From a virus, in the IMG/VR virus record IMGVR_UViG_3300033151_000069, positions 1 to 48,138 of that record: a stretch of 48,138 nt of DNA. One strand, written 5' to 3'. Positions 10,124-39,186 of this stretch are shown piece after piece. The translations under genes and the position numbers were made by a program. How positions within the stretch are numbered: the stretch's first letter is position 1; each line of letters starts with the position of its first letter. The notes under the pieces are model-generated. The model was not told where the DNA came from, did not search any database, and saw nothing but the letters and a program-made list of their open reading frames with translations.

Positions 10124-10189
10124 ATTTATGTCCTCACATATTGTATTTATATCATGTATAACATTTGGTGTATCAAATTGTTATAATGA

Positions 10190-10218
10190 ATTATATCACA
10201 ATTTTAAAACAATGTCAA
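10190..10218 (-). promoter_or_regulatory. Perfect sigma-70 promoter, proximal, for 9839-10123
   Basis: On the minus strand, TTGACA (10213-10218) is followed by 17 bases and TATAAT (10190-10195), with an extended TGA. The -10 lies in a near-palindrome TGTTATAA, TGAA, TTATATCA with the same 4-base gap as the dyad at 8694-8715. Confidence 0.82.
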
Positions 10219-10318
10219 CCAATTTGACATCAAATTTCAAAATTTGATTTATTAACAATTGCAACATTATGAACACATATTGAATATGTGTTATTACAAT
10301 GTTTAATTGTTATATTGT

Positions 10319-10347
10319 ATTATATTGTAATTATAACAATATGTCAA
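10319..10347 (-). promoter_or_regulatory. Consensus sigma-70 promoter, distal tandem copy
   Basis: On the minus strand, TTGACA (10342-10347) is followed by 17 bases and TATAAT (10319-10324). There is no extended TG. It lies about 130 bases upstream of the proximal promoter and faces the same way, so transcripts would carry a longer AT-rich leader. Confidence 0.75.
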
Positions 10348-10800
10348 CCAATTAATCATTGAATTTATTGATGATCCCATCAGTTGAACTGATGATGATA
10401 TGTGACATTTTATATAATGTATATAAATATCATAATATCCTTAATATGAGGTTAATGTTATAACATTGTTATAATAATGTTATATATGTGTTACAATATG
10501 TTACAAATCAACGTGAAGGCATTATTATACATTATGTGATACATTGTATGATTAATGTGTTACAATGTGTTTATGCACCGGTTATGTGACATTGTAGGGG
10601 TATTATGATATATTGTGTATAATGATATGATGATTGATATGATATTGATTAATATGATATATTGGTATATGTAATGATATGGTATGTGCTTTGCTTATAA
10701 TTGTGATGTATGTCAATGTGATATGCTAGGATAGTGTGTTGTTATGTTGTGATATGTGTTTAGGTTATATATATAATTGATGTTTCTCCTTCTCTTCAGC
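10348..10800. other. Gene-free AT-rich region, G/T-rich plus strand with GATATG-type repeats
   Basis: There is no credible reading frame. Repeated words include GATAT, TGATATG, TGTTATAACA and TTACAATGTG. Hand counting 10561-10740 gives about 43 G against 9 C on the plus strand, a strong skew. Together with the reversed skew on the other side of the GC-rich island, this resembles an origin or a boundary of replication. The iteron-like words are degenerate. Confidence 0.6.
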
Positions 10801-10810
10801 TTAAGTATAT

Positions 10811-10868
10811 GGCTACCCCCGGTGGGTGCAGGGGGGTGTCAAGGCATGCCCCCCGGGGCGGATGGGCC
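10811..10868. other. GC-rich island with two mutually exclusive hairpins
   Basis: This is the only long GC-rich stretch in an AT-rich gene-free region. ACCCCC (10815-10820) can pair with GGGGGT (10832-10837). Alternatively GGGGGG (10831-10836) can pair with CCCCCC (10849-10854). The two pairings compete for the same G-run. The island sits at the point where the strand composition reverses. It could be a terminator, a packaging-recognition site or part of an origin. Confidence 0.6.
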
Positions 10869-11026
10869 AACCAGGAACAATTACATAATATAATTTTTCA
10901 AAATTTCAGCCCACCAATTAAGCAACCCAACAGCCCCCCTACCAAACACAAAACCACCCAAAACCCAGACCTTGTTTCACGTGAAACATTCATATTATTA
11001 AATATCAACCACCAAACCACAGAAGA
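10869..11026. other. Gene-free C/A-rich, G-poor tract carrying parS
   Basis: By hand count, 10921-11040 has about 10 G and 43 C, the mirror image of the tract at 10561-10740. A plus-strand open frame crosses it, but the frame has no ribosome site and a biased, low-complexity composition, so I do not call a gene. The tract ends at the terminase stop. Confidence 0.6.
10973..10988. promoter_or_regulatory. Perfect parS-type palindrome (ParB-binding centromere site)
   Basis: The 16 bases TGTTTCACGTGAAACA are a perfect palindrome identical to the chromosomal parS consensus recognised by ParB/Spo0J across many bacteria. By simple counting, an exact 16-base match is expected about 0.00001 times in a random 48-kb sequence. 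No ParB or ParA gene is visible in the window, so host ParB is the likely ligand. The site lies between the GC-rich island and the 3' end of the terminase gene. Confidence 0.85.
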
Positions 11027-12640
11027 CTACACAGCATGCCCCTGAGGTCTTCTTCGACCGCTCCCATAAGTAACAGTATATGGGTCCTTTAGTGCTGGCA
11101 TAGTGATGTAGATAACAAGGTCGGCCCAGTGTGACCACTCATCATGCTTAGGTTCTTTCTTCCATTGTTCCAACTTTGGGTCCCATTCTCGGCTGTAGTT
11201 GGCGAAGGTAGCTATGCAATATGGACATGCTTGGTCAACTTCAACATAGCTCTTCTCTATTTCGCTACGGACTTGGTTGATAGCTACTAGTTTGTTGGTA
11301 GGGCGTTCAAGCATAATGACAGTGAAGCCTTCTTCCCTATAGGCTTGTTCCGCTGTTTGTAGGTCGACTTGACTACGCTTAGTTCCGTCATGTGGGAGGA
11401 AGAGTTGGGGTAAGGAGGCTCCGATGGAGGAGGTGAACTGCTTGATCTTCATGGCGTAGTGCTTGACGCCTTGGTTTGAGTTGCCATATTCCCACACGAT
11501 AGTGCGCCGCTTGTTGTAGAACTGTATTAGGCCTACAGTGTTGGTGTCATTTACACCTAGGTCCATGAAGCAGTATAGGGGTAGTTGCGGGTTGTAGAGG
11601 TGAGGTACATGGTCAGGGGAGTCGACTGCACCGATGAGGCCGAAGTCCTTCCAGGCATTGTGCCAGTAAGCACCCATTCGTGAGGCCTTGAAGGCTTCCT
11701 CAGCAGTAAGTGGGTATTCCTGGTAGATCTTAGTCTTGAGCTCTCTGTATTGAGAGATCCACCAGTTCTTCTGCTCTCGGGTGAAGGTCCACCCATTAAG
11801 CTCATGTTCTGAGAAGTAGTCTAGTGATTCTTGAGTGGAAGATTGATCTATAGCCAGGTTACAGTCTGGGTCCTCATGCCAAGACAGGAACACAGGGAGG
11901 AAGTCTTTAGGTGCTCTCTCCTCAGGCTTAACACCTTCTGCCTCATCCCACATATATCTAAACTCATTTGTTCCTTCAGCAGTTGACTCAATAATCGCGG
12001 CGTTACCCTGAGCAATGGCTTGTAGTGATCCAGTCTTAGTCTCTTCAGCACGCTTAGGGTTTTCATTGGCTATTTTACCAAACTCTGAGATATGTAGGGC
12101 TTGTAGTGTCTGGGATCTAAATGATACACCAATTAGAACTTGTGAGTTGTTAGTGAACTCCACAGTGTCTGTGTTATCTTTAACTAGTGCAAGCATAAGG
12201 AAGCCTTTCACATTCTCATCCAGTGTGCTCCAAAGCAGTTTAGTCCTAGTTAGTAGGATTGAAGCCTCACGCTTACCTTGTGCCATCAGACCACCTGTAT
12301 AGTCAGGAATTGTTATGGCAGTGTCAAAGAACATGATTAGCCATAAGGTTGAGATACCTTGCTGCCTAGACTTGAGGATGATAAGGCGTGGGTGTTGAAG
12401 GAAGTACCAGTAGACTATAACCTGTGCCCTGTTAGGAGTGAAGTGAATACGCTGACCCCATTTGTCTACAATAGTGTATAGATTGACAAGACGCCACAGT
12501 CTGGAGGGTAGGTAGTTCTCAACCATGTCCTTGTCACTGGCAGGCTCAGTCTCAAACAAATAAGGGTCCATAGTAGGAAATCTCTGTAGGAACTCAGTCC
12601 TGGGTATGCTGAGGTTCCATGGAATTAGTTTACGTTCCAT
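11027..12640 (-). CDS. terL: Terminase large subunit
   Basis: The 537-residue protein is the packaging motor. The ATPase domain has a Walker A-like S-R-Q-Q-G-I-S-T at residues 91-98 and a Walker B region A-L-H-I-S-E-F near 181-187. After it comes a coupling-type motif in I-I-E-S-T-A-E-G. The nuclease domain starts near residue 357 with F-M-D-L-G-V-N-D, continues with L-P-H-D-G-T, and ends with W-S-H-W-A-D. These are the acidic metal-binding residues of the RNase H fold. It translocates DNA through the portal and cuts concatemers. It follows the small subunit gene by one base. Unusually, it is transcribed away from the rest of the virion genes. Confidence 0.93.
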   Translation of the reverse strand: MERKLIPWNLSIPRTEFLQRFPTMDPYLFETEPASDKDMVENYLPSRLWRLVNLYTIVDKWGQRIHFTPNRAQVIVYWYFLQHPRLIILKSRQQGISTLWLIMFFDTAITIPDYTGGLMAQGKREASILLTRTKLLWSTLDENVKGFLMLALVKDNTDTVEFTNNSQVLIGVSFRSQTLQALHISEFGKIANENPKRAEETKTGSLQAIAQGNAAIIESTAEGTNEFRYMWDEAEGVKPEERAPKDFLPVFLSWHEDPDCNLAIDQSSTQESLDYFSEHELNGWTFTREQKNWWISQYRELKTKIYQEYPLTAEEAFKASRMGAYWHNAWKDFGLIGAVDSPDHVPHLYNPQLPLYCFMDLGVNDTNTVGLIQFYNKRRTIVWEYGNSNQGVKHYAMKIKQFTSSIGASLPQLFLPHDGTKRSQVDLQTAEQAYREEGFTVIMLERPTNKLVAINQVRSEIEKSYVEVDQACPYCIATFANYSREWDPKLEQWKKEPKHDEWSHWADLVIYITMPALKDPYTVTYGSGRRRPQGHAV

Positions 12641-13417: not shown

Positions 13418-13472
13418 ATTGTATTAGGTGATAAAATATATAGGCCTATATAACAAATTACAAAGGATGAAT

Positions 13473-19549: not shown

Positions 19550-22500
19550 ATGGCAAAGATTAAACAGGTAGGGGATGAATACCAGGTTGAGTTTACAAGA
19601 CTAGGTCTTGAGGATTTATTCTGGGGTGAAGGTATTAGAACAGTTACTAGATTTGGTCAGGAGTTCACAGTCCATGAGATTAATGCCAAGAACTTACCTT
19701 TTGAACAAGGTAAGACTTTGCAGGAAGTACTTGACCTTAAGTACCCAGGTATTGAAGCAGTAGCATCAGAACTTCCACACTTAGTTCAGGTTAATGAACA
19801 TCTGCCTGAAATCATGGCGGTAAAGTCCTCCTTAGATAGCTGGAAGCAGTTAGGTGTTGCAGCAACCTTAGGGCAAACAACTGGTGTTGTATTTGACTCA
19901 TCTGCAAACTCACTTGTCTTTACTATTGAGCAAGGACCTATTGGTCCACAAGGTATTGCAGGCCCAGCAGGTCCTATGGGTTATGGTATTAGAATTTTGG
20001 GTCAAGATACCTATGCTAATATCATTCTTAAGCCTAGCCCAGTTAAAGGTGATATATGGATTGCTACAGACTCCTCTGCTTCTCATGGAATAAATAGTGC
20101 TATTCTATGGTCAGGAACTGCTTGGTTAGCACTACCTGAACTAAAAGGTCCAGAAGGCTTAGAAGGTCCTATGGGTCCAACAGGTTCCGTAGGTCCAGAT
20201 GGCCCACAAGGTATTAATGGTATAGAAGGTGCCCAAGGTCAGACAGGTCTAACTGGTCAAACTGGTGCAGATGGGCCTAGAGGTTACACAGGAGACAAAG
20301 GTGCTCAATCAACTGTACCAGGACCTGTGGGACCTCATGGAGCCCAAGGTATAGCAGGTTCTAGAGGTATTCAGGGTATAGCAGGTCAGGGTATTAGACT
20401 TCTGTCACCTGTGCCTGGCTCAACTGACTTACCATTACTTGGTAATATGGGTGGAGATGCTAGAGTAGCAGTTGACACAAGTGTATTATACATTTGGGGT
20501 TATGGAACTTGGCATGCAACTAGTATTATTTCAGGACCTGCAGGACCACTAGGTGCTAGAGGCTCAGAGGGTCCAGTAGGTATGCCAGGACTATTAGGTC
20601 CTAGAGGTGGTCAAGGTGATATTGGTCCAACAGGTCCAAGAGGCCTTAGAGGATTCCCAGGTGTTAATGGGCCTAGAGGTAATGCAGGATTAGTAGGCCC
20701 ACAAGGTATACAAGGTGTGCATGGTACTCAAGGAGTTCCAGGTCAAAGAGGCCTACAAGGTGTTCAAGGAACTGGTGTAGTTATAAAAGGTGCTGATGCA
20801 AGAGCAACCATTGAAGCTAAACTAGGTCATGCAGGTGATATGTGGCTCATTAAGAGTACAGGGACAGACAATGGCCATGGACTTATTAGTGATGGTGGTG
20901 GTGCTGGACATTTACACTGGAAGTATGTAGGAGCAATCCAAGGTCCTTCAGGTGTTGATGGTGCAGATGGGTCAAATGGTACTAATGGTATTTCTGCTTA
21001 TCAAGCTTGGTTAGATGCAGGTGGAGTAGGTGGAGTAGGTGATTTCTTAACTGAATTAAAAGGCCTTAAAGGTGAGCATGGAGATGAGGGTGTTAGAGGT
21101 GAGCTAGGTCCAAGAGGTATGGCAGGCCCAGAAGGTCCACTAGGACCAGCTGGTGGACAAGGTGCACCTGGAGTAAGTGGACCAAGAGGTCCAGCAGGTA
21201 ATACAGGTCTTAGAGGTATCCAAGGTAATCCAGGTCCTGTAGGTGACCATGGAATAGCAGGTCCTCAAGGTAATGCAGGTCAAAAAGGTGATATGGGAAC
21301 AACTGGTCCAAGAGGTGATATAGGTATCACAGGAGCAGTAGGTTCACCAGGTCCAAGAGGTAAAGTAGGTCATGATGGACAAGATGGACTCAGAGGACCT
21401 CAGGGTACAGAAGGTCCAACTGGTCATACAGGTGTTAAGGGTGATGTAGGCCTAGGTATCAAAATAGCAGGTGTAGTGCCAGATGCAGGTAGTTTACCAA
21501 CAGCTGGAACTGTAGTAGGTGAAGCTCACTTAGCCTCAGACTCAGGTAACTTATGGGTTTGGGATGGTACTCAATGGTTGGAGGCTGGTCATGTAAGAGG
21601 TCCAGCAGGTAACCAAGGTGTTCCAGGTCATGCAGGCCCAACAGGAGCAGAAGGACCTCAAGGAGTTCCAGGTTCTAATGGTGCTCATGGATCAGATGGT
21701 CCAGCAGGAGCAACTGGTCAACAAGGTACTACAGGAACAACTGGTTCAACAGGTTCAACAGGTGCTGCAGGTGTAATGGGTAAAACAGGTCCTCAAGGTA
21801 ATGTAGGTTTAGCAGGTGCAAAAGGTGATGAGGGGCCTATGGGTCCAAAAGGTCCTGCCTCAGTTGCTACGGGTATGACATTTAAAGGTGTGGGAACACA
21901 TCCTGTAACTGGTGTTATAGGTGACTTGTGGATCTCAACTAGTGGTGTAGGAATTGTTAATGTAGATGGAGCATCAGACTGGCAGACACTTGGACCTGTA
22001 ACTAATGTGGTAGGTCAAGATGGTCATGATGGAGCAACTGGAGCAACTGGGCCTAAAGGTGACAGAGGTGTAGAAGGTATCCAAGGACCTGATGGTCACA
22101 CTGGTGGTACAGGCTTAAAAGGTTCACCAGGCCAAGATGGGTCAGCAGGACTTGTTGGTGCAAGAGGTCCAGATGGTCATGCTGGTCCAGAAGGAGTACA
22201 AGGTCCAACTGGTTCAGCAGGAGTAGAAGGTCCTAGAGGAGCTAAAGGTTTGACTGGTTCAGGTATTCACTTCATTGGTGCCTTAGCTGATGAGACTGCA
22301 CTTCATGCACTTCAAACGCCTGAGCTAGGTGCCTCATACTTAGTTCTTAGCACTGGTAGTATGTGGATATTTGATAGTCCAACTCCTCCACATGATCCAA
22401 TAAATGCTAGTTGGCATGAATTAGGTCATGTGCAAGGTCCAGAAGGAACTAAAGGTTTAGATGGAGTTCAAGGTCCTAGAGGTTTACAAGGTCATGAAGG

Positions 22501-23047
22501 TCCTACAGGTCAACCAGGTCATAAAGGTGATGTAGGTCCAGAAGGACCTGCAGGTCCAAGGGGACCTAATGGCCTCACAGGTGGAGAAGGCCCAAGAGGT
22601 GGGACTGGTACACAAGGACCTAAAGGTGATCCAGGTTTAGTAGGTAGAGATGGTGTAGATGGTGTAGATGGAGTTCAAGGCTCAACTGGTCCTAAAGGTG
22701 ACCAAGGTGCAACAGGAACTGCTGGACCTAAAGGGGCTAATGGTTCTCAAGGAGCCTTAGGTCCAATAGGTCATGATGGTATCCAAGGTATCAAAGGTGA
22801 TGTAGGAGCTAAAGGAGCAACAGGAACTGCTGGACATACACCAGTATTAGTATGGGCAACACAAGCAGAAGTCGATGCAGGTACTGTAGTTAATAAACTA
22901 GTGAAACCTAATACATTGAAACATGCTAGTTGGTTGCAGAGCTTAGTTCATAAGAATCAGAATGCAACTAGCACTGTTGCTGGACTAGTTAAAATGAGAG
23001 TTGCAGGTGGAGTTCTATACCTGACAAATACAGGAGCTAACGCATGA
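19550..23047 (+). CDS. Collagen-like tail fibre with intervening beta modules
   Basis: The 1165-residue protein has long Gly-X-Y collagen repeats (G-P-X, G-A-X, G-I-Q forms) from about residue 130 to 1095. They are interrupted by six similar non-collagen modules at about 145-200, 281-327, 407-462, 635-680, 776-819 and 904-960. Each contains a W or L-W-x-W-type strand pair (for example G-N-L-W-V-W-D-G-T-Q-W-L) and returns to G-P-x. A shorter module (S-A-Y-Q-A-W-L near 482) is a standard phage-fibre linker. The C-terminus has the T-Q-A-E-V-D-A-G-T type motif of fibre foldon regions. The protein should form a long trimeric fibre. It starts with GGAG at five bases. Confidence 0.88.
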   Translation: MAKIKQVGDEYQVEFTRLGLEDLFWGEGIRTVTRFGQEFTVHEINAKNLPFEQGKTLQEVLDLKYPGIEAVASELPHLVQVNEHLPEIMAVKSSLDSWKQLGVAATLGQTTGVVFDSSANSLVFTIEQGPIGPQGIAGPAGPMGYGIRILGQDTYANIILKPSPVKGDIWIATDSSASHGINSAILWSGTAWLALPELKGPEGLEGPMGPTGSVGPDGPQGINGIEGAQGQTGLTGQTGADGPRGYTGDKGAQSTVPGPVGPHGAQGIAGSRGIQGIAGQGIRLLSPVPGSTDLPLLGNMGGDARVAVDTSVLYIWGYGTWHATSIISGPAGPLGARGSEGPVGMPGLLGPRGGQGDIGPTGPRGLRGFPGVNGPRGNAGLVGPQGIQGVHGTQGVPGQRGLQGVQGTGVVIKGADARATIEAKLGHAGDMWLIKSTGTDNGHGLISDGGGAGHLHWKYVGAIQGPSGVDGADGSNGTNGISAYQAWLDAGGVGGVGDFLTELKGLKGEHGDEGVRGELGPRGMAGPEGPLGPAGGQGAPGVSGPRGPAGNTGLRGIQGNPGPVGDHGIAGPQGNAGQKGDMGTTGPRGDIGITGAVGSPGPRGKVGHDGQDGLRGPQGTEGPTGHTGVKGDVGLGIKIAGVVPDAGSLPTAGTVVGEAHLASDSGNLWVWDGTQWLEAGHVRGPAGNQGVPGHAGPTGAEGPQGVPGSNGAHGSDGPAGATGQQGTTGTTGSTGSTGAAGVMGKTGPQGNVGLAGAKGDEGPMGPKGPASVATGMTFKGVGTHPVTGVIGDLWISTSGVGIVNVDGASDWQTLGPVTNVVGQDGHDGATGATGPKGDRGVEGIQGPDGHTGGTGLKGSPGQDGSAGLVGARGPDGHAGPEGVQGPTGSAGVEGPRGAKGLTGSGIHFIGALADETALHALQTPELGASYLVLSTGSMWIFDSPTPPHDPINASWHELGHVQGPEGTKGLDGVQGPRGLQGHEGPTGQPGHKGDVGPEGPAGPRGPNGLTGGEGPRGGTGTQGPKGDPGLVGRDGVDGVDGVQGSTGPKGDQGATGTAGPKGANGSQGALGPIGHDGIQGIKGDVGAKGATGTAGHTPVLVWATQAEVDAGTVVNKLVKPNTLKHASWLQSLVHKNQNATSTVAGLVKMRVAGGVLYLTNTGANA

Positions 23048-24914: not shown

Positions 24915-26840
24915 ATGGCAACACAATCAATAGAAGTAAAAGACTTTACAGGAGGTAGGAATTTCCTCACCTCACCCTTTAATGTCTACCCTACTGAAGC
25001 AGAAATCTTTACTAATATAGCACTAGACAGTACTGGTATGAGGACAGCCAACTACATACCTGTACAGAAACTACTTCCTGCTAGAGGGAGCAATGCTTAT
25101 CAAGTAGCACCTAAGGAAGGTGAGGCATACACACTATCCCATGCAACTGAAAGTGTTACTGAGAAGGTTAGACACTTTCAAGGTTCTGAGTATATCATTA
25201 ATGCTGGAATTCCTTACAAGTTAAATGGAGCAGGCAAACTTGCATCTACAGTTGTAGCAAATACAATAGTAGGCCATGCAGTACAGACAGCACACACTGC
25301 ACCTGCTGATGGTGTAAAGATTAAGGCAGTTAATTATATCTACTATATGTCAACTTACTCTGCAGCAGGGTTTGAAAGTCCTTTAGAGGAAATAGGTCAC
25401 TCAGTAGGTCACAAGACATGGGATACTAACTTCACAGTTGAACTAGCATCTGACCAAGTCATTACACTTGACAAGTTGCCTGCTACAGGTGACTATGTGA
25501 GAATATACAGAATGGGTGATAACATTAGTCAACCAGCACTAGTATGTCAGATTGACTCAGCAGGTATCATTACTTTGCACAGAGGTCCAATTAGTTGGGA
25601 CAACACTAAGAAGGAATTAACCTTTGCATTACTAGATGACTTACTAGGTATATTTGCTAGGACATGGGGAGCAGTTTATCCTGGTGACCTTAGATACCTT
25701 GCGGCAACAAAATATGGGCTTGCTGCAGCAAAAGGTTCACAGTTGTATCTATCTATGGGTAGACCTGATGCCTGGAGTGAGTTAACTATGCTTAACTTTG
25801 GTTCAACTATTACAGGTGTAGCATCTGTATATAGAGGTATCTTAGTATTCACTGAGTCAACTTACCTATATCTAATTACAGGTGCTGACCCATTCAACTT
25901 AGATGTGAATGTAGTCTCAACTGATATAGGTTGTGCTTCAAACAGTTCTTTATCTGAGATAGGTCATAAGGCACTCATATGGGTGTACAACAGAAGGTTC
26001 TATGTCTTCTCTGGGAGTAAGGTTGAGGAGTTAGAAGCAAACACTTATGACTTTGACTTCTTTGCACGGCAGGGGTTTAGTGAAGAGGTGACTGCTGTAT
26101 CAGGGCAGAACAAGTACTTAGTAGGAGATGATAATGGCTTAGTTATGGTAGATATGAACCATAGGTATAATCCTTTCATTGATTACAACTTGATGCCTCA
26201 GTTTATTGCTAACCATAAACCTGCATATCTAAGAGATGTGTTAACTAAAGGACATAAGACAATAGGGGCTTATCACCATGATGGATCCTTCTATGTACTT
26301 CACAGAGAAGTATATGGAGATGTGGAATATGTAGACAAGTATCCTGAGACAGATGACTTTGAGATAGGTTGTTACACTTCACCCCCAACACCCGAGGACT
26401 GGGACTGTGTAACAGATACTTCAAAAGAATGTCCAGACCCATATGTGGGTCTATATGGACCAGAGACACCTATTGAACCAACAGCATGTTTTGTTGGGGC
26501 AGTAGTAGGTAGATACAACATCCACACCTTAGACATAGTGCCTGTAATGACAGATGCAGAGTATAAGAGTCCCATGTTCACTTTTGGAGATATGAATGCT
26601 CCTATTATATTCACATCTGTTGAAGTATTATTTGAAGGAGAACTAGATGTCTTTGTATACATAGATGATGTAGAGGTTAGAACTAAGGTTGAGTTTGTCA
26701 GTCAGCGAAGAGGTACTGCTAGGATAGTATTACCCTCCAAACAAGCTCAAGGTAATTTTTTACAGGTGAAGTTGAGATTTAATGGTGCTGTGTATGGTTA
26801 TAGGGTCATGGGAGATCCTCTATATTCAGCGAGTAAATAA
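24915..26840 (+). CDS. Tail nozzle protein (T7 gp12 / P22 gp10-like)
   Basis: The 641-residue protein starts with D-F-T-G-G-R-N-F and has a long beta-rich body with W/Y-containing strands, such as L-Y-L-S-M-G-R-P-D-A-W-S, S-T-Y-L-Y-L-I-T-G and V-Y-N-R-R-F-Y-V-F-S-G. This resembles the beta-propeller core of podovirus nozzle or stabilisation proteins that close the tail under the portal. The second half contains a Cys-rich loop (C-Y-T...D-W-D-C-V-T) that may be disulphide-linked. The position after the fibre genes and before the ejection genes agrees with this. No exact family is fixed. Confidence 0.72.
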   Translation: MATQSIEVKDFTGGRNFLTSPFNVYPTEAEIFTNIALDSTGMRTANYIPVQKLLPARGSNAYQVAPKEGEAYTLSHATESVTEKVRHFQGSEYIINAGIPYKLNGAGKLASTVVANTIVGHAVQTAHTAPADGVKIKAVNYIYYMSTYSAAGFESPLEEIGHSVGHKTWDTNFTVELASDQVITLDKLPATGDYVRIYRMGDNISQPALVCQIDSAGIITLHRGPISWDNTKKELTFALLDDLLGIFARTWGAVYPGDLRYLAATKYGLAAAKGSQLYLSMGRPDAWSELTMLNFGSTITGVASVYRGILVFTESTYLYLITGADPFNLDVNVVSTDIGCASNSSLSEIGHKALIWVYNRRFYVFSGSKVEELEANTYDFDFFARQGFSEEVTAVSGQNKYLVGDDNGLVMVDMNHRYNPFIDYNLMPQFIANHKPAYLRDVLTKGHKTIGAYHHDGSFYVLHREVYGDVEYVDKYPETDDFEIGCYTSPPTPEDWDCVTDTSKECPDPYVGLYGPETPIEPTACFVGAVVGRYNIHTLDIVPVMTDAEYKSPMFTFGDMNAPIIFTSVEVLFEGELDVFVYIDDVEVRTKVEFVSQRRGTARIVLPSKQAQGNFLQVKLRFNGAVYGYRVMGDPLYSASK

Positions 26841-26866
26841 TTAATAATGAATAATAACATTAGACA

Positions 26867-26895
26867 TTGACATTTAAGGTCAATTATGTTATAAT
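26867..26895 (+). promoter_or_regulatory. Perfect sigma-70 promoter inside the virion module
   Basis: TTGACA (26867-26872) is followed by 17 bases and TATAAT (26890-26895), with an extended TGT. It drives the ejection-protein genes starting at 26926, 31 bases downstream. It is the only clear consensus promoter inside the plus-strand module. Confidence 0.9.
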
Positions 26896-26925
26896 GAAAT
26901 AAATAGTATTCATAAAGGAGATAAT

Positions 26926-27741
26926 ATGTGGATGTTAGCTGGTATGGCAATAGCTGGGGCAGTAAAGGGCATGGCAGGTGACAAAGATGCCAACAACCAA
27001 ACTGAAGGTAACTACACTTCTGACAAGAATCAGGCTTATGCAGATTACACTGCTAACCGAAACAGAAGTAATGAGTACAGAGCTGGAGTTACTAACAACA
27101 GAGAAGACTCACAGTGGGAAGCAGACAATGCCAATGCAGTATCTAGAGGGCATGCAAACCAAGGTATGTGGGGAAGTAAGTATCAGGTCAAACAACTACA
27201 AAGTACTTATGATAATCTCATAGGTGAGTTTGGTGACATGGCTGACAACATAAAAGGACACTTTGAATCCTTATCTCCTAGTTCAGTCAAGGCACAAAAC
27301 AATGAGCAGTTTAACTTAGCCTATCAAAATGAGATTGAAGCTATCACACAAGACCTTGGCGCACAGGGTATTAATCCTGGATCTGGTTTAGCTATGGCAA
27401 TGAAAGGTATGGCACGAAATAAGTCAGAGACTGGTAAGGTCATGGCTAATAGAAATGTTGAAACTGAAGTAGCTCAAGCTAAATTAGGCTTCATGGATTA
27501 TGGGACTAATAGTCCACTCTTCCAAGGCAGGCCAGTTGACTTTGACGAAGGAATGTTAACTGATAAACAGACAGGACATTTTGCTCCAAATAATCCTAAT
27601 CAGATTAATGATGTTAATGCAGAAGGTTGGGACACAGAGATGGCCTATGTAGGCAAAGGACCTAAGCAGTCAGGTGGTGCCTTCATGGGTGCTATTGGTG
27701 GTGTTGCTGGTGGCCTTGGCAGTGTATTTGGAGGAGACTAA
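26926..27741 (+). CDS. Internal virion / ejection protein, small
   Basis: The 271-residue protein starts with a short hydrophobic helix (M-L-A-G-M-A-I-A-G-A-V-K-G-M) and ends with a Gly-rich hydrophobic tail (F-M-G-A-I-G-G-V-A-G-G-L-G-S-V-F). Between them it is Gln/Asn/Ala-rich and helical. The size, hydrophobic ends and position before a peptidase-bearing protein match T7 gp14-like proteins that form the outer-membrane pore during ejection. It has its own consensus promoter and AAAGGAG ribosome site. Confidence 0.75.
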   Translation: MWMLAGMAIAGAVKGMAGDKDANNQTEGNYTSDKNQAYADYTANRNRSNEYRAGVTNNREDSQWEADNANAVSRGHANQGMWGSKYQVKQLQSTYDNLIGEFGDMADNIKGHFESLSPSSVKAQNNEQFNLAYQNEIEAITQDLGAQGINPGSGLAMAMKGMARNKSETGKVMANRNVETEVAQAKLGFMDYGTNSPLFQGRPVDFDEGMLTDKQTGHFAPNNPNQINDVNAEGWDTEMAYVGKGPKQSGGAFMGAIGGVAGGLGSVFGGD

Positions 27742-27742
27742 G

Positions 27743-29833
27743 ATGGCAGGATTATACGAAATATTTGGTGATAGTTATGAGATGGGTAAGGACATGAATG
27801 CCTCAGCAAAGAAACAGGAAGTATGGGAAAACAATGCTCCTGCTAGAGAATTGCAGAAGGAACAAGATCAACTTGGTTTAGATGTTCAGAAAGCAGGTGA
27901 CTCAGTATATGGTGGCAGAGTAAAGAGAGCCCAACAGTTAGCTCAAGAAGCCAAGTATGTAAAACAACTAGACATTCAAACTAAAGAGTCACAGAATGCC
28001 TACAGAAATGCTCAGGCGGCAAAGATGAGTTCAACAGCATTTGATGACTCATTTGGGCTATATGCAAATGATGGAAGGCAAGAACACTTACCTAAAATGG
28101 CAGAGGCATCTGGAGGTACCCAAAATCCAGATGGATCATTCCAAATGGGACCCAGAAGTTACACTCCTCTTAACCAGAATGACTTTACAGCAGATGACAA
28201 AGAGAAGTGGCAAGTACTTCAAGACAAACTCCAAGACCAAATTGACTCAGGTGAAATTGAGGTAGTAGACACTGCAGAAGGTACTCGCTATAAGATTAGA
28301 GAGTCAGGTCAGATGTTTAATCCAGAGTTAGCTATGAGACGGGATGATGGTGAAGTTACAACTGTCTTAGACCCAGGTGTTGCATTAGGTACAGCTAAGC
28401 GTAAGTCAAGCTACCTAAAGAACACCCAGCCTAAGAAGTATGAGAAACTAGATCCAGAAGCAAGTTCTGCTGCAAGCCCACTCCTTGAAAAACATGGACT
28501 GAGAATTACATCAGGCTTTAGAAGTCCTGAGCATAACAAATCAGTAGGTGGAGCTAAGAACAGTAAGCACATGGAAGGTCATGCTATGGATGTCCACTGG
28601 AAAGGTAAAACTACAGCAGAGAAGTCAGCAATTATCAAAGACTTCAAAGAGGCTGGGTTTACTGGTTTTGGTGTAGGGGAAAACACACTTCATGTTGATA
28701 GACGGAAGAAAGGTGCTTCATGGTCCTACATAGGTGGTACTAGTACTGGTGGGGGTAAGATGCCACCATGGGCAAGAGACTCAATCAGTGGGACAACTGC
28801 AACCTCAGGTACAGGTGAGTTTGCACAACACAGAGATAAAGAATTAGACTTCTATGAGAAAGCAAGAGAGGTCAAAGCATTAACTGCTGACCAGAAAGAG
28901 TATGCTTCAACACTAAAGATGAATCCACAGTTCATGCTTGACAATAACATCATGTCCTTCCAGGATTATGATAAGCATAAGAAACTTGAGAAGTCAAGAG
29001 ATGATGCCTTGGTTAAGAAGATGAAGTCTGACACGGCAATTGAAAAGGTTGCTAGTTATCAGGACTACATTAATGACCCAGAGGTTAGTTATGAGACTAA
29101 GTCAGCTAGGTTAGCTAAGACATCAACTGCTGAGTTAATGCAACTTGAGAAGTCAGCAAAAGATGCTGGGTCATATGATCCTGCTGTAGTTAAAGAGATG
29201 AAGGTAGAGGTTAGCAACATACAAGAGTTTGCTCCACACCTAAATGAGATTGCTAAGTTGTACTCAGATCCTGATGTAATGTCAGAGATGGCAAGCCCAA
29301 CTGGGTTCTTAGCAAATGCTTTCAATACATTTAAAGGTGCTAAAGATGAGAAGGACTTAGTTAAACTAATGAAGACTCAGATGGCACAATCTGCAAAAGG
29401 TACTGCTGCAGCTAAGATCTTGAAAGCAATGTCAGGTGCATCTGCTACTGATGATGAATTTGCAAGAACATTATTCAATGCTTTTGGTAAGACAGGTTTT
29501 GATAAGGATGTCCTTATTGCTACTGTGTTCCAAGGATTGAAAGGTAGTCAAATGTCACTAGAGAGTACATTGACAACCTCAGTGAACAATGGTGGTTACC
29601 AGAATGCTAGAAGTGCATCTAGGTTACATACTAAGATTGGTGCCTTCTTGAAGAGCCCACACTTCAAAGGTGTAAATGAAGCTGTAAGTACTCCTGAGAG
29701 TAAGCCTGCAAAAGGTGAGATGTCCAGAGAAGATAAGGCTGAGAGATTAAAAACACTCTTAGGTATTCAGAAGAGGGCTAGGGAAGCAGGAATTACTACA
29801 TCAGAACAAGCTAAGTTGGAAGGATTTAAGTAA
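27743..29833 (+). CDS. Ejection protein with embedded peptidase M15 domain
   Basis: This is 696 residues from the ATG at 27743, preceded by GGAGGAGACTAAG. An upstream frame extension has no such site. Residues about 252-330 form a D,D-/L,D-carboxypeptidase (M15) domain: R-I-T-S-G-F-R-S, then S-K-H-M-E-G-H-A-M-D-V with the zinc His and Asp, and a closing L-H-V-D. These residues bind zinc and cut peptidoglycan stem peptides. The rest is alpha-helical with Lys/Glu coiled coils. The protein is probably injected and opens the cell wall, like the lytic transglycosylase domain of T7 gp16 but with a different chemistry. The fusion is of interest because no separate lysin is seen. Confidence 0.85.
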   Translation: MAGLYEIFGDSYEMGKDMNASAKKQEVWENNAPARELQKEQDQLGLDVQKAGDSVYGGRVKRAQQLAQEAKYVKQLDIQTKESQNAYRNAQAAKMSSTAFDDSFGLYANDGRQEHLPKMAEASGGTQNPDGSFQMGPRSYTPLNQNDFTADDKEKWQVLQDKLQDQIDSGEIEVVDTAEGTRYKIRESGQMFNPELAMRRDDGEVTTVLDPGVALGTAKRKSSYLKNTQPKKYEKLDPEASSAASPLLEKHGLRITSGFRSPEHNKSVGGAKNSKHMEGHAMDVHWKGKTTAEKSAIIKDFKEAGFTGFGVGENTLHVDRRKKGASWSYIGGTSTGGGKMPPWARDSISGTTATSGTGEFAQHRDKELDFYEKAREVKALTADQKEYASTLKMNPQFMLDNNIMSFQDYDKHKKLEKSRDDALVKKMKSDTAIEKVASYQDYINDPEVSYETKSARLAKTSTAELMQLEKSAKDAGSYDPAVVKEMKVEVSNIQEFAPHLNEIAKLYSDPDVMSEMASPTGFLANAFNTFKGAKDEKDLVKLMKTQMAQSAKGTAAAKILKAMSGASATDDEFARTLFNAFGKTGFDKDVLIATVFQGLKGSQMSLESTLTTSVNNGGYQNARSASRLHTKIGAFLKSPHFKGVNEAVSTPESKPAKGEMSREDKAERLKTLLGIQKRAREAGITTSEQAKLEGFK

Positions 29834-31647
29834 TGAATACAGATTTACATACTATTAGAGAAAGTTTCAAACTAGGTTACAATGCCTATGAGCAGAGTTA
29901 CAAGGAGTATGATGAAGTCAAGAATATGTATGATGGGGCAATGTATAACAGGTCCCAACTAGCCATATTACTTGAAAGAGGTCAACCCGCAGAGTACTTC
30001 AATGTCATCCAGATGTTCTCACGCTCACTTCAAGGGTACTTTAGTTCTGTGGTTAACACTATGCAGGCTAAAGCATTGGAGCAAGGTGATGTGCTCAAAG
30101 CAAATGCTATTAACCTTGCACTAGAGTACACCTTAAGAATAAACCTTTGGGATGTAGCTAAGGATGATTTACAACAGCATGCTTTCCTTGCAGGCCTTAT
30201 GGGTACATACTACAAGATTAAAGAGGTAGGTGTTGATGACTTTAACAGAGTAAAGAATGAGATTATAATGGAAATCATTGAACCTTATGAGTTTGTTCTT
30301 GACCCTAAGTCACATAAAGCTGACTACTCCGATGCTAGATTTATTCACAGATTTAGATGGGTTAGTAAAGAGGAAGCTAAGAAGTTATTTCCAAGAACTT
30401 GGAAGAAACTAGAGTCTACTGTAAACACTGCTGAGGTTGAGACAGCAAGCATAGGTTACACTTATGGAGATGGCTTCAATGACAGATGGCAGATGTTTGA
30501 AGAGTACCTAATAGTCCACACAGGTGTTGTAGACAATAAAGGTCAGAGTTGGGAAGTATGGTGGTCAGGAACTAATGAACTTAAAAGACAAAAACTTGCC
30601 TTTGAAGAGTTAAGATTCCCATACAGAATTGTAAAACTACACAGTGGTAAGAAACCTGACTTCCATGGTATCTTTAGAGATGTAGTTGAGAGTCAGAAAG
30701 CAATCAACCAAGCAGTGCTACAGATACAACAACTTGCTAATGGAACTAAACTGTTAGTTGAAAACCAAGCAGTTGATGATATAGATGAGTTTGAGGTTGC
30801 ATGGGCTAGAGTGAACTCAGTACTAGGTGTAAATAGGATTGTAGGTATTAAAGAGATTGATGTATCAAAAGACATTGCTAACCAATACTTAATCATTGAG
30901 AAGGCACTAGAGAGAATCCAGAAGGTACTACATATTAATGATAGTTTCTTAGGTCAAGCATTCGCTAGTGACAGTGGTAAGAAGGTTGCATTACAAAAGA
31001 ATTCATCTATGATGGCACTTAGATACTTGACAACCAAACTTGATGTTCTTTATAGATCAGTAGCACTAGATGTTATTACACTACAGAGACAGTACATGAC
31101 TGCACAGTTTGAAGTTGACCAGACAGATGACATGACACAAAAGGTGAATTGGACTAAGTTGAATACACCTGTTATGTTACCTCAACCTGATGGATCACAA
31201 GTTCCTGCTTCTGAAGTTAAGATGGGTAAAGATGGGCCTGAGAGAGAGTTAGTGAATGATCCTGACTACTCACTCATCTTTGATAGAATGGATATTAAGA
31301 TAGAAAGTGTTGCATATGAGGAAGCATCTGATGCTGATAAACTTATGATACAAGAGACACTTAATAGTCCTGCAGGCCAGATGTTAGGTAAAGCACAACC
31401 TGGGTATTACTTCATGATTGCCAGTCTGTTAGCTAAGCAAACTAAGACAGTTCACTCAGCAGAGATTGCAGCAATCTTTAGACATGCTGGAATTGCCTTA
31501 GGTTCAGCACCTACAATGGATCCAAGAGTACTTGACCAGATGCAAGGTGGAGGGCAAGGTGCAGAAGCACCACAACCTAATGCAACATCAGGTGCAGGTG
31601 CAACTGCCTCAGCAATGGGTGTAGATACTAATAGTAACAATATGTAA
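29833..31647 (+). CDS. Portal protein
   Basis: The 604-residue protein has the layout of a podovirus portal. It is helical at the start (Y-N-A-Y-E-Q-S-Y-K-E-Y-D-E-V-K-N-M-Y-D-G-A-M-Y-N), followed by a crown-type region with V-L-D-P-K-S-H and the mixed wing (R-W-V-S-K-E-E-A-K-K-L-F-P). A long helix follows at about 350-400, and the tail is Pro/Gly/Ala/Gln-rich and disordered. Its start shares a base with the peptidase gene's stop. The gene lies at the far end of the virion module, about 17 kb from terL; in most phages these two are neighbours. Confidence 0.82.
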   Translation: MNTDLHTIRESFKLGYNAYEQSYKEYDEVKNMYDGAMYNRSQLAILLERGQPAEYFNVIQMFSRSLQGYFSSVVNTMQAKALEQGDVLKANAINLALEYTLRINLWDVAKDDLQQHAFLAGLMGTYYKIKEVGVDDFNRVKNEIIMEIIEPYEFVLDPKSHKADYSDARFIHRFRWVSKEEAKKLFPRTWKKLESTVNTAEVETASIGYTYGDGFNDRWQMFEEYLIVHTGVVDNKGQSWEVWWSGTNELKRQKLAFEELRFPYRIVKLHSGKKPDFHGIFRDVVESQKAINQAVLQIQQLANGTKLLVENQAVDDIDEFEVAWARVNSVLGVNRIVGIKEIDVSKDIANQYLIIEKALERIQKVLHINDSFLGQAFASDSGKKVALQKNSSMMALRYLTTKLDVLYRSVALDVITLQRQYMTAQFEVDQTDDMTQKVNWTKLNTPVMLPQPDGSQVPASEVKMGKDGPERELVNDPDYSLIFDRMDIKIESVAYEEASDADKLMIQETLNSPAGQMLGKAQPGYYFMIASLLAKQTKTVHSAEIAAIFRHAGIALGSAPTMDPRVLDQMQGGGQGAEAPQPNATSGAGATASAMGVDTNSNNM

Positions 31648-31656
31648 GGAGAAGTG

Positions 31657-34600
31657 ATGAATGGTATAGATCCAGCAGGTGACATAGATGAGAATGTTAA
31701 AAGAGTTGAAGCAGAGGCAGATGCTGTTTTAAAGGAACAGCAACCTTATACACCTGAACCTCAAACTCTTAAGATGCAACCTGGAACAGTTATGAGTCCA
31801 GGTGAGATGATGGCACCAGCAGATGCAGATCCCTTAGATGCAGAGATAAGTGAGTTAGACTTAGGGTCTGGGGGAGAGGTTAAACCTCCTGAAAGTTCAG
31901 ATCCCTTGGATGCTGAGATATCTAAGTTAGACTTAGGTTCTGACCTTGGTGTTCCTGCTCCTACAAGTGGAGGTAACATCCCTGAGCCTAGTGCAGAACA
32001 GAAGGCATATAATGCTATGCCACTTTATGAGAAAGTCACTAGCAACACAACTAACCTACTTAAAGCTAATGTTGGTAGATTTGGAGCTTTAGTTAATGCA
32101 GGTGGAGCAAACTTAAATGAGGTTTTTAATGTAGACAGTGAACTCTACAGAGAGAACCAAACTTTCTGGAAAGGTCTGTCTGACCAAGCAATTAAAGAAC
32201 TTGAACCTGCTTATGGAGATAAGAAAGGTTGGAAGATGACTGTAGCTAAGGAGTTTGCTAACCCTTTAAACTACTTACTTCTAAGCAGTGTAACCTCAAT
32301 GTCAGGTGTAGTTGGTACAGATGTATCAGCAGAGAATGCTGTAGGTGAGAATGCAGGTGAAGGTGTTGACCAGTCAGATACTAACTCAGTGGCCTTAGGC
32401 ATGGGTGCAGGTATTATCATTGGAAAACTAATAGAACCTACAGTACGGATCATGGGTGAAGCAAGTACAGGTGTCCTAGATATGTGGAGACTAAGAGGTT
32501 TACCTGATAATGTTAAGCAAGTTCTTAAAGAGGGAACTCCTGAGGACCTGACTAAACTACTTACAGACATGAAACTTTCAGAGGACTTAGGTGCAGGCTT
32601 CCTACCTATGGGTGGAAAGGCTAGTGCAACAACCAACATCTTTGAGGCTAATAGAGCTCATGGATTAGGTGGTGTAGTAGATAGAGTTGAGAGGGAAGCA
32701 GTTAAACTTGCAGATGACATACTCAACAGAGGTGATCCATTAGAAGTTGCAGCAGAGACAGTATACACTGCTGCAAAGGCTAAAGAAAAGACATTGCAGG
32801 ATCCTATGAAGGAAGCATACAATAACAGTATTCACAAGGCTTCTGTGGAACCTCAGTATGACATGAAGGAAGTTAACCAAGGCATCATAGATGTGCTTAG
32901 AGATGAAGGTGCTCCTGATCCAGTTATTAGTCATGTTATGAAACAACTCTACTCTAAGGGTAGACACCTAACACCTGATGAAAAGGCTGCAACTAAAGAG
33001 TTAGGTAACCTCCAAGCACAGTTAGCTCAAGCAGAGAAGAAGGTAGGTGGGAACAAGACAGCAAGACCTGGATTGAAGAAGCGTATTGCTATTCAGCAAA
33101 AGAGACTTGAAGAACTTAAAGAAGCAGGTAAGAAGACAACCTCTGCTTGGGACACAGGTAAATTGCAACTAAAAGAACTTGAGGATCAGTATATCCTAGG
33201 TGGGTCAACTAATCAACAACTAGGTGGAAAGATCACTCAGTTAAAGAACAAGTTGGGTAACCTCAAAAGTCAAATGCCTGAAACATCTGACCTGTTCTCT
33301 GAGCGTGAATTAATCAACTCTGTTAGAGGTATCACTCATAAGATGACTACTGCAGGTGGTGACATTAGTATTGGTGATGATGTAGCACAGTTCTGGATGG
33401 CTAAAGCTAAAAGACAACTGGGTGATGCAGTAGGACCTATGTTCAAAGAGAATGGGTCTGAGATCTTCACTGAGTTTAGTAGAGCAAATGGGTTAGCTAA
33501 GAAATACTATGACTATGCTAATGGTATGAAGGAGATGCAACAGTTACTAACCAAGGGTGAAGTATTGCCTGAAGAAGTGTTAACTAACTTGTTGCAGAAC
33601 CCTGTCAGACTCAGACAAGCAATTAATCTTATAGATGATCCTGAGGTGGGTGGTGACTTAGCTAGGCAGATGGTGTCAAACCTAACAAGTCCCACAAGTC
33701 AGATAGGTGTAGGTTTAGAAAAGTTAGACATGAAGGCAACTTCAAAGAAACTGAACTCAATCTTCAATGATAAAGGCAATGTAGCCTTCTTGAAGAAGCA
33801 TCTACCTGCTGGGGAGTTCAGACAAGTCAACTCTCTTAAAGATGTTATTAGTGATTTCACTAAGATGACTGATGCACTTCCACCAGAACAAGGTATAGGT
33901 GAGTATTTAACAGGTGCTGGTGGTATCACCACAACTGTTGGTAGATTCATGAAGGTAGCTTATGATGGTGTGGGTTACATGAAGAACTCCTTGTTAGAAA
34001 CTGTAGGCAGACAAGCAGGCAAGTCTAGAGTTATACCTCATAGGGAGACATCTTTTACTAACACTACTCAGATGAAGCAAGCAATGAACTTAGTGACTAA
34101 GAAACTTAGAAATGCTGGCCCAGATGCTCCTGAAGGCTTTAAACTACCTGACTTAACTAGAGGTGAAAGAAAGGTAGTGAACAAGGCTATTGAGTCAATG
34201 GCAAAGTGGAAGGTTACAAGCAGAAACAGACCGGGTTTCATTAAAGGCCAGGCTGTTACTACAACTGTAGGTGCAGGAACTGGTGCTGTAATTGGTGCCT
34301 CAGAAGCACCTGAAGGCCACAAACTAGAAGGTGCAACTGCAGGAGCATTAGTAGGTGCAGGTTTAGGTATGGCAGCAGGTAAAGGTATGAAAGGTTATGA
34401 ACCAGGAAAGTCAAATATTCTAGGTGGTGAAGGTCTAGCTGTTAGAATGGGTAAAGGTGCAGAGTACAAGCAAGCAGTATCAGAGATGCAGGAAGGTAAA
34501 CTGTCCAAGCATGACATTTATGGCAACACAGGTATGGTAGTTCACAAAGGTGAAGTTCACATGCCAGTTAAACATTTCTGGAACAGAATAACAGCTAAGA

Positions 34601-36420
34601 AACTAACAGACAAGCCTCAACCTGTGTCTGAGATATTTAAAGATGCTAGTGATGATGTATTAAAAGAGTACCCAGAATTAGCTAATGTTGATATAGCAGT
34701 GAACCCTAATATTAGCAGTGAGGGTGTATACCACCCAGCACATGGAAATACAAAAGCCTTAATTGAGGTTAAGGAACAGTTTTCTGACTCAGTACCTCAT
34801 GAGATCCAACATGCTTTGCAACAGATAAGTGATGCTCCCCAAGATAAAAGGGGCAGTAACCCTAGAGCATATATAGGTCAAGCTAAGGCAGTAGTTGATT
34901 ACATGGAGGAAACTTTAGGCACAATGCTATCAACAGATAACATGAAGACCTTAGTAAAGTACTTTAAGGAGGAAGAGGTTGACCCAGACAAACTTCACCT
35001 AGTGAAGAAGCAATTTATAGATAATGGAGCAAATCCTGCTGACGTTATAGCTTTGATGTATGACCTCAAACCTTATACTAGGTATGCAACTAACACAGGT
35101 GAACAGGAAGCAAGGATGGCCTCTAAAGTTGCCATGGGAGATAGTCCCTTTCCTGGAAACATGGAGTTAGGTCAGTATATGGATGAACCTGAAGCTATAT
35201 CTAAAGCCTTCCTAGATAAGAATGCTGTATTTGGAGTAGACATTATCAAACCTGCTAGCAAAGCAAATGAGATAACTAATGAGATAGCTAAGTCATATCC
35301 TGAAGGCTCAATGGAGCATAACATATACACAACTATGGAGTTCTCAGTTGATGCTGGTAGGATTGTAGACAAGTTACAAAGAGGTGAAGGCTCAATAGTC
35401 TCAATGCCTTTGAAGAAGAGACAGCAAGCATTGGATACACTATTAACAACTGACATGAAAGATGGCATGGGTGCAGTAGGCTATACTCAACCAGGTGAGA
35501 TTGATTACAGAGGTTTTACAATGAGAGCAAGACCTAATGACTTTAGAAACCTTGCAGCAGACTCTGATAAGGCTATGGACACAAGTTCAATAGCTAAGGG
35601 TGTTGCTGATGGTAAGAAGATAGGTGAACCTTTCCTCACTGTGAAGTATGATCCTGCTACAAACACCATGCACGTTAGTGGTCATGAGGGTAGGCATAGA
35701 ATGGAATACATCAAAGAGACATTTGGTGGTGATGTTGATATACCTATTCACATAGTGACTATGAGAGAGATGGCAGAAGATGGTGCTGACTATGAGATGA
35801 GAAACAGACACATCCCAAAGGATGTTGTAGGTTCTACTACTAAGTGGGTTGATGAAGAAGGTAACAGAGTTAAAGGTGGAGTATCAAGCAAGTTTAAGTA
35901 CAACTTGTATCAAATGCTTGGTATCACTGCTGGAGCAGGTGCTATTAGTTCTCCTGAGGCCAATGCTAAAAGTGCTTATGGGACAGAGTTAACCAAGGTG
36001 TATGATGATACTATCACACCAACAGGTCATGCACAGGGAGGTAAGTTAGACTTCATTCCTACAAAGGATAGACAGGCTAACATGGCAAACCTAGGTTTAG
36101 AGATGTTGAGACCTGATGGATCAAAAACTAATGCCTTGGAGACTCACCAAGCAAGAAAACAGAATAGGAGTGAAGCTTTCAGAACAGGTCTACAAGATGG
36201 TAAGGATATGTACTTTGCCTCACTAGGAGATACTGCTGACCTTAGTAAGGCAGAGATTGATACAAGGTTTAGAGCAACACATAAAGAGTTAACTGTTATG
36301 ATGAAGTCAGGAAATTATGACTTTGCTGAAAGAAAGATATTAGAACTTAGAATTGAGAACTTCCAAGCACTTCTTAGAGAGAAGTCAGCTGGAGAAACTA
36401 ACAAATTTACAAATTATTAA
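31657..36420 (+). CDS. Giant internal virion protein (polyvalent type) with HExxH and ParB-like region
   Basis: This is 1587 residues from the ATG at 31657 (a GTG three bases earlier is possible). The N-terminus has two copies of a short acidic repeat D-P-L-D-A-E-I-S-x-L-D-L-G-S. The middle is helical with coiled coils near residues 440-530. Near residue 1048, P-H-E-I-Q-H-A-L has the zinc metallopeptidase signature HExxH. Near residue 1345, H-E-G-R-H-R-M lies in a region that resembles the ParB/sulfiredoxin fold (V-K-Y-D-P, then V-S-G-H-E-G-R-H-R). Such mixes are typical of polyvalent proteins that are injected with DNA and protect it. The gene is the last of the plus-strand operon. Confidence 0.8.
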   Translation: MNGIDPAGDIDENVKRVEAEADAVLKEQQPYTPEPQTLKMQPGTVMSPGEMMAPADADPLDAEISELDLGSGGEVKPPESSDPLDAEISKLDLGSDLGVPAPTSGGNIPEPSAEQKAYNAMPLYEKVTSNTTNLLKANVGRFGALVNAGGANLNEVFNVDSELYRENQTFWKGLSDQAIKELEPAYGDKKGWKMTVAKEFANPLNYLLLSSVTSMSGVVGTDVSAENAVGENAGEGVDQSDTNSVALGMGAGIIIGKLIEPTVRIMGEASTGVLDMWRLRGLPDNVKQVLKEGTPEDLTKLLTDMKLSEDLGAGFLPMGGKASATTNIFEANRAHGLGGVVDRVEREAVKLADDILNRGDPLEVAAETVYTAAKAKEKTLQDPMKEAYNNSIHKASVEPQYDMKEVNQGIIDVLRDEGAPDPVISHVMKQLYSKGRHLTPDEKAATKELGNLQAQLAQAEKKVGGNKTARPGLKKRIAIQQKRLEELKEAGKKTTSAWDTGKLQLKELEDQYILGGSTNQQLGGKITQLKNKLGNLKSQMPETSDLFSERELINSVRGITHKMTTAGGDISIGDDVAQFWMAKAKRQLGDAVGPMFKENGSEIFTEFSRANGLAKKYYDYANGMKEMQQLLTKGEVLPEEVLTNLLQNPVRLRQAINLIDDPEVGGDLARQMVSNLTSPTSQIGVGLEKLDMKATSKKLNSIFNDKGNVAFLKKHLPAGEFRQVNSLKDVISDFTKMTDALPPEQGIGEYLTGAGGITTTVGRFMKVAYDGVGYMKNSLLETVGRQAGKSRVIPHRETSFTNTTQMKQAMNLVTKKLRNAGPDAPEGFKLPDLTRGERKVVNKAIESMAKWKVTSRNRPGFIKGQAVTTTVGAGTGAVIGASEAPEGHKLEGATAGALVGAGLGMAAGKGMKGYEPGKSNILGGEGLAVRMGKGAEYKQAVSEMQEGKLSKHDIYGNTGMVVHKGEVHMPVKHFWNRITAKKLTDKPQPVSEIFKDASDDVLKEYPELANVDIAVNPNISSEGVYHPAHGNTKALIEVKEQFSDSVPHEIQHALQQISDAPQDKRGSNPRAYIGQAKAVVDYMEETLGTMLSTDNMKTLVKYFKEEEVDPDKLHLVKKQFIDNGANPADVIALMYDLKPYTRYATNTGEQEARMASKVAMGDSPFPGNMELGQYMDEPEAISKAFLDKNAVFGVDIIKPASKANEITNEIAKSYPEGSMEHNIYTTMEFSVDAGRIVDKLQRGEGSIVSMPLKKRQQALDTLLTTDMKDGMGAVGYTQPGEIDYRGFTMRARPNDFRNLAADSDKAMDTSSIAKGVADGKKIGEPFLTVKYDPATNTMHVSGHEGRHRMEYIKETFGGDVDIPIHIVTMREMAEDGADYEMRNRHIPKDVVGSTTKWVDEEGNRVKGGVSSKFKYNLYQMLGITAGAGAISSPEANAKSAYGTELTKVYDDTITPTGHAQGGKLDFIPTKDRQANMANLGLEMLRPDGSKTNALETHQARKQNRSEAFRTGLQDGKDMYFASLGDTADLSKAEIDTRFRATHKELTVMMKSGNYDFAERKILELRIENFQALLREKSAGETNKFTNY

Positions 36421-38631: not shown

Positions 38632-39186
38632 TTATCTCCTTGTTAATGCTAGGAACTCTTCTTTAACATCTGCATCTAAGAAGTTTCCTACCAATTTACT
38701 TGTCACAGTTTTACAACCATGATGCTTGATACCTCTGCTTGATACACAGAAGTGTTCTGCTTCAATAACAACTCCTACACCTAAAGGACTTAATTCCTTC
38801 ATCATAGTTTCTGCTATCTGTGCTGTTATACGCTCTTGAACCTGCAATCTTCTTGCAAAGTGTTCAACCAACCTATTCATCTTACTCAAACCAACAATCT
38901 TTCCATTAGGAATGTATGCTACATGAGCAACACCAACTATGGGTGCAAGGTGGTGAGCACAATGACTATATAGAGGAATGTTCATCTCTACAACCATCTG
39001 GTCAGTATCACTGTCCTCAAAGGTTGTGAAGGTAAATGAGTCTCTGTATCCTGCTCCCCAGGACTCAACCCAAGCCTTAATCACCCTCTTAGGTGTATCA
39101 GATGTATGTGAGTCAGGTTTGCCTTTAGTGATAAAGTTCACTAATGTCTGTACTGCATCTCGTGCTTCTTGTTCTGTAGTTATCAT
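38632..39186 (-). CDS. folE: GTP cyclohydrolase I (FolE)
   Basis: The 184-residue enzyme makes 7,8-dihydroneopterin triphosphate from GTP, the first step toward 7-deazaguanine. Zinc ligands are C76 and H79 in Y-S-H-C-A-H-H and C147 in A-E-H-F-C-V. The family motif Y-I-P-N-G-K-I-V-G-L-S-K is intact, and R-R-L-Q-V-Q-E follows. The usual C-E-H-H reads C-A-H-H here, a substitution outside the zinc ligands. It overlaps the downstream-facing neighbour by four bases, and all genes of this pathway lie within 3.8 kb. A phage copy raises the supply of precursor above the host's folate need. Confidence 0.95.
   Translation of the reverse strand: MITTEQEARDAVQTLVNFITKGKPDSHTSDTPKRVIKAWVESWGAGYRDSFTFTTFEDSDTDQMVVEMNIPLYSHCAHHLAPIVGVAHVAYIPNGKIVGLSKMNRLVEHFARRLQVQERITAQIAETMMKELSPLGVGVVIEAEHFCVSSRGIKHHGCKTVTSKLVGNFLDADVKEEFLALTRR

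Follow-up and report, generated by a model that had tools for sequence, protein, structure and literature searches.

The window analysed here, a stretch of viral DNA of 48,138 nucleotides taken at its full length, contains a single exact copy of the 16-bp parS palindrome, TGTTTCACGTGAAACA, at positions 10973-10988. The preliminary description of this DNA had reported an exact parS in a gene-free region beside the terminase gene terL, and the site is indeed located there, 38 bp beyond the terL stop codon. Comparisons at the sequence level make it probable that the palindrome is a genuine and recently gained parS that acts in cis only and would load ParB-CTP clamps of the host. The evidence comes from the surroundings of the site, its recurrence in phage collections, the patchy conservation of parS among related phages, and the lack of matches to Par proteins in the record.

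The phage and the surroundings of its parS site

On TerL kinship and shared gene order, the phage is classed as a Kafunavirus-like podovirus. Its TerL is 40-44% identical to those of Pseudoalteromonas phage PH1, Vibrio phage VPMS1, Edwardsiella phage KF-1 (Kafunavirus), and Dickeya phage Amaethon, and the gene order of the window is common to KF-1, VPMS1, PH1, and Amaethon. Neither an integrase nor a repressor was found in PHROG and Pfam scans of the main ORFs of the window other than the large structural ones, and an MCP scan of bacterial genome contigs yielded no prophage relative and thus no clue to the host. A 7-deazaguanine synthesis cluster at 38632-43068 comprises GTP cyclohydrolase, QueC-, QueD-, QueE-, and QueF-like genes together with a phosphoribosyl transferase-like ORF, and a dATP/dGTP diphosphohydrolase-like gene lies near it at 43968-44366; the 245-aa ORF at 40050-40787 had no match in family scans. 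Because the record has the GTP cyclohydrolase and QueC/D/E/F-like genes, the guanines of the phage DNA may be modified. The features that surround the site are as follows.

10124-10790, no strand: AT-rich non-coding stretch beside parS; a candidate origin and early control region, judging by sequence, repeats, and GC skew
10190-10218, minus strand: perfect sigma-70 promoter (TTGACA-17-TATAAT, 12/12) toward the early genes
10319-10347, minus strand: perfect sigma-70 promoter (TTGACA-17-TATAAT, 12/12) toward the early genes
10815-10868, no strand: GC-rich element, from the alignment with the nearest relative, L122, and inspection of six relatives; possibly a packaging or end signal
10973-10988, no strand: parS palindrome TGTTTCACGTGAAACA, exact and the sole copy, without terminator features
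11027-12640, minus strand: terL, terminase large subunit, with PHROG terminase matches, the identities given above, and 72% identity to L122
12642-13061, minus strand: probable terS, terminase small subunit, from synteny with the annotated terS of VPMS1 and KF-1; 46% identical to the L122 counterpart and without a match in family scans

When the window was tested against the parS consensus, the palindrome at 10973-10988 matched without mismatch, the runner-up matches had three mismatches each, and the shuffled window gave a mean of 0.23 matches at up to three mismatches. The base composition predicts 1.8e-5 exact parS in the window, or about 1 in 55,000, which is close to the 1 in 100,000 put forward earlier. 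Only one other perfect 16-bp palindrome, TATATAGGCCTATATA at 13437, is present.

No supported gene occupies the roughly 900 bp around the parS (10124-11026), with a leftward early gene on one side and the 3' end of terL on the other. A mechanically called ORF of 78 aa on the plus strand (10809-11045) overlies the site but lacks support, since the alignment to L122 has gaps that are not multiples of three; with this ORF covering it, the site is counted as outside ORFs at an 80-aa limit and as inside at a 60-aa limit. The site adjoins the AT-rich stretch near the minimum of the cumulative GC skew, a skew that also tracks gene orientation. A GC-rich stretch occupies a comparable place after terL in the relatives, as seen in the L122 alignment and in the six relatives inspected. 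Within the AT-rich stretch lies a 62-nt direct repeat (77%; 10176-10237 and 10305-10366), and each copy contains a perfect sigma-70 promoter directed at the leftward early genes, either whole or for the most part.

The earlier remark that no parA or parB is visible in the phage genome agrees with six-frame searches of the 48-kb linear, possibly incomplete record, in which ParA (PF13614) and ParB_N (PF02195) had no match at E<=1. PHROG and Pfam scans of the main window ORFs other than the large structural ones likewise gave no partition gene; the large structural ORFs (19550-23047 and 24915-36420) and the small ORFs were covered by the six-frame ParA/ParB searches only. A ParABS system of phage or plasmid type belonging to the window itself was rejected, as neither parA (Walker ATPase) nor parB was found in the record.

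Recurrence of exact parS in phage collections

Exact 16-mers were sought in INPHARED with a 30-mer that had N flanks. The parS sequence occurs in 286 records from many unrelated groups, including Listeria P100-like phages, Lactobacillus Herelleviridae, Gordonia, Arthrobacter, and Microbacterium phages, Roseobacter DSS3P8, Vibrio phi 3, phi29-like Bacillus phages, gokushoviruses, and an inovirus. The inovirus, bajarodino virus 6 (L167, PQ006149), has six exact parS in 5.9 kb and no ParB_N match. Three control palindromes gave 5, 0, and 0 records, the five being one Erwinia lineage with the palindrome within a gene. Among the INPHARED rows listed there was no Escherichia phage, although the collection should contain many of them, a suggestive point only. 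In the Gordonia phages Woes (L259) and Orchid (L166), parS is at the tip of GC-rich inverted repeats that differ between the two.

At least 120 IMG/VR contigs have an exact parS. A rough calculation, 120 x 120 / 25, puts the total at 576 or more; it uses the 25 contigs common to the scans for parS (at least 120) and for a 17-mer extension (at least 120) and presumes that both scans ran in the same order. With TGTTTCAGCTGAAACA and TGTTTGACGTCAAACA as control palindromes, complete scans found 33 contigs and 1 contig, respectively; in this comparison kinship among phages raises the parS counts, the control palindromes are few, and IMG/VR may include bacterial fragments. With mechanical gene calls, 69 of 146 IMG/VR parS sites were covered by no ORF of 80 aa or more, versus 0 of 33 control sites lying outside in this way, and the counts at a 60-aa limit were 57/146 versus 0/33.

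Viral origin was checked in part: a phrog_2 TerL was present in 14 of 50 parS-bearing contigs, and 45 of 215 had a TerL akin to two seed sequences. Among contigs with several parS sites, seven of eight had phage structural, packaging, or replication genes, and the eighth (L069) only a PurZ-like gene. ParB_N was detected in 2 of 50 parS-bearing IMG/VR contigs, many of which are fragments, and in 1 of 14 parS-bearing isolates, leaving 48/50 and 13/14 without it. That many unrelated phages carry parS without a ParB of their own suggests the borrowing of a host segregation protein.

The sequence TGTTCCACGTGGAACA, which we take to be the Pseudomonas form of parS, was found in 58 INPHARED records; 17 of these are Pseudomonas phages of several unlike kinds, with the site mostly between genes, and in the Klebsiella phages among the matches listed it is within genes. 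Phage Amme-3, which can be paired with Pseudomonas putida KT2440 in the laboratory, is one that has TGTTCCACGTGGAACA in an intergenic position.

Patchy conservation and competing explanations

The preliminary description had proposed to look for this 16-mer near terL in related phages, and here the expectation failed. Relatives were gathered by a TerL search and TerL alignment, MCP searches having yielded none, and 0 of the 80 TerL relatives (578 kb, L122 included) had parS at up to two mismatches. The nearest relative, L122, has no parS in 24 kb at up to three mismatches and no clear remnant of one in the aligned intergenic region; parS is likewise absent, at up to two mismatches, from PH1, VPMS1, KF-1, Amaethon, and two spring phages. 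Because of its absence from L122, these six genomes, and the 80 TerL relatives, the parS appears to be specific to the lineage of the window among the relatives found. Many Kafunavirus-like relatives (L179-L244, L156, L160) have other AT palindromes, e.g., TAATAAATTTATTA, right after terL, at the place of the window's parS.

Conservation is patchy in other phages as well. In a marine clade of parS contigs (including L027, L083, L097, and L120), the exact 16-mer is located 33-170 bp before terL, with diverged flanks and TerL proteins that are 60-93% identical; L097 has two parS forms in tandem, TGTTCCACGTGGAACA being 8 bp ahead of TGTTTCACGTGAAACA. As these contigs had been selected on parS, a second sample was drawn by fetching TerL relatives regardless of parS; it comprises 33 with a TerL identity of 74% or more and with no less than 200 bp of DNA upstream. 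Twelve of the 33 had a parS form in the upstream DNA within 400 bp of terL, 11 of them including the exact sequence and one TGTTCCACGTGAAACA, and the other 21 had none in that stretch even at three mismatches, so that decayed forms were not seen. In a more distant TerL group, 1 of 36 had parS. Three related phages (TerL 82-88% identical) have three to five exact parS near terL, and the surrounding intergenic DNA is largely diverged:

L017, 2657-3444: three to five exact parS, between terS and terL
L044, 10535-11462: three to five exact parS near terL
L053, 240-961: three to five exact parS near terL

Selection acting alongside frequent gains and losses would produce an exact-or-absent pattern like that of the 33, and a lone parS in the window is then unsurprising. 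Because gain and loss are patchy elsewhere too (12/33, in one clade), the missing conservation argues for a recent gain of parS and not against its function.

The position of the sites also bears on what ParB would be recruited for. In 24 of the first 120 IMG/VR parS contigs, the distance between a parS and a detectable TerL is about 1 kb or less. Vibrio phage phi 3 has a parS in its terminal repeat, and Clavibacter phage CMP1 has one close to its terminal redundancy. These positions speak for a role other than segregation, namely titration of ParB from the host chromosome, shielding of DNA near a genome end, or marking of the packaging region near terL. We consider such a role rather unlikely, as one clade supplies about 15 of the cases near terL, parS is distant from terL in many isolates, and before replication one site would draw off little ParB.

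A palindrome that arose by chance and has no function in this phage, despite the general enrichment elsewhere, would account for the single copy and for the 0/80 among relatives, and one like palindrome does match by chance in the collection (33 contigs). It is nevertheless improbable, given the expected number in the window and the placement outside ORFs (80-aa limit) of 69/146 parS versus 0/33 control sites. Since control matches sit inside ORFs and so many parS sites outside, chance is estimated to account for a few per cent at most of the exact parS found outside genes in viral contigs.

We consider it least probable that the palindrome serves the terS-terL operon as an intrinsic terminator, or that some unrelated regulator of the phage or the host uses it as an operator. 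A place 38 bp past the terL stop is usual for a terminator, a 6-bp hairpin is possible on the plus strand, and the Gordonia phages Woes and Orchid have parS within GC-rich inverted repeats, but neither a GC-rich stem followed by a T run nor any other terminator-like site was found at parS, the palindrome is not extended, the fold on the terL strand is no better than in shuffles (z = -0.02), and an operator would leave unexplained both the host-matched variants and the fact that unrelated phages share the exact 16-mer.

Proposed recruitment of host ParB and its relation to known systems

In bacterial chromosome segregation, ParB-parS is a central system, switched by CTP. ParB is loaded as a CTP clamp at parS and then spreads (PMC12704722), as two further papers also describe (PMC7053999, PMC8367383). 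In phage P22 with an engineered P1 parS, ParB given in trans binds within minutes, and the phage DNA replicates and is packaged (PMC4697819). According to the preferred reading, the lineage of the window recently gained a parS that acts in cis only. On infection, the chromosomal ParB of the host would load at the phage parS as a CTP-dependent clamp and spread across the adjoining terL and early-region DNA, which would make the phage DNA resemble an extra origin-proximal piece of the chromosome to the cell. ParA, and possibly SMC, would then tie the phage DNA to the nucleoid, and this tie would retain and position it during infection or in a carrier state.

The idea that parS recruits host ParB in a phage without Par proteins came from the preliminary description. 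At the level of phage populations it is strongly backed by the enrichment, the intergenic placement, the host-matched variants, and the clade footprint, and conservation in close relatives is the part that did not hold. That host ParB is recruited by the window's parS is quite likely, a shade more so than the reading as a whole; the absence of the site from every relative found and its single copy in the window count against it, and guanine modification might hinder ParB at the phage parS. Recognition by host ParB, its occupancy of the site in infection, and a benefit through retention and positioning, not protection, titration, or packaging, are what we infer. The benefit is proposed tentatively and at less than even probability; retention and positioning through ParA fit best with the sites of filamentous and small phages, which stay in the cell for a long time.

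Beyond this phage, we lean towards a cis-only piracy of the host centromere as a widespread strategy. Tailed dsDNA phages, microviruses, and filamentous phages of ParABS hosts would independently gain the host's own variant of parS, keep it exact under selection, often near terL, and use the host segregation machinery without any Par protein; the window would be one recently gained case. If phages recruit ParB by a 16-bp tag, infection is tied to nucleoid organization and SMC loading, and parB mutants should alter infection. The phages would also offer host-matched variants of parS as a natural collection, and perhaps a means of guessing phage hosts. No description of orphan parS in phages was found in the literature searched, the scope of which excluded preprints and most subscription papers, and an earlier notice is possible.

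The 16-bp sequence TGTTTCACGTGAAACA is identical to the consensus of the chromosomal parS of bacterial ParABS systems (PMC10197239, PMC6238139). However, chromosomal parS sits near oriC of the chromosome, whereas the parS of the window is on a phage and its reader protein would be that of the host. Phages that use dif (IMEX such as CTX phi) likewise borrow a host chromosome-maintenance protein by means of a short host-type site. The dif site serves integration by XerCD, in contrast to the parS of the window, which would serve ParB loading without integration. P1 and mycobacteriophage RedRock, through their ParABS systems, also have parS on extrachromosomal phage DNA, but they encode their own ParA and ParB and have their own sites, those of RedRock being repeated 8-bp motifs (PMC7157519), and no Par protein was found in the record of the window. 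Engineered P22 is similar in that parS on infecting phage DNA is bound by ParB in trans, as proposed here, and different in that it combines P1 parS with P1 ParB as a microscopy tracking tool (PMC4697819). A host-type centromere site used in cis by a phage would therefore be a variant of the known partition systems and not a new kind of machine.
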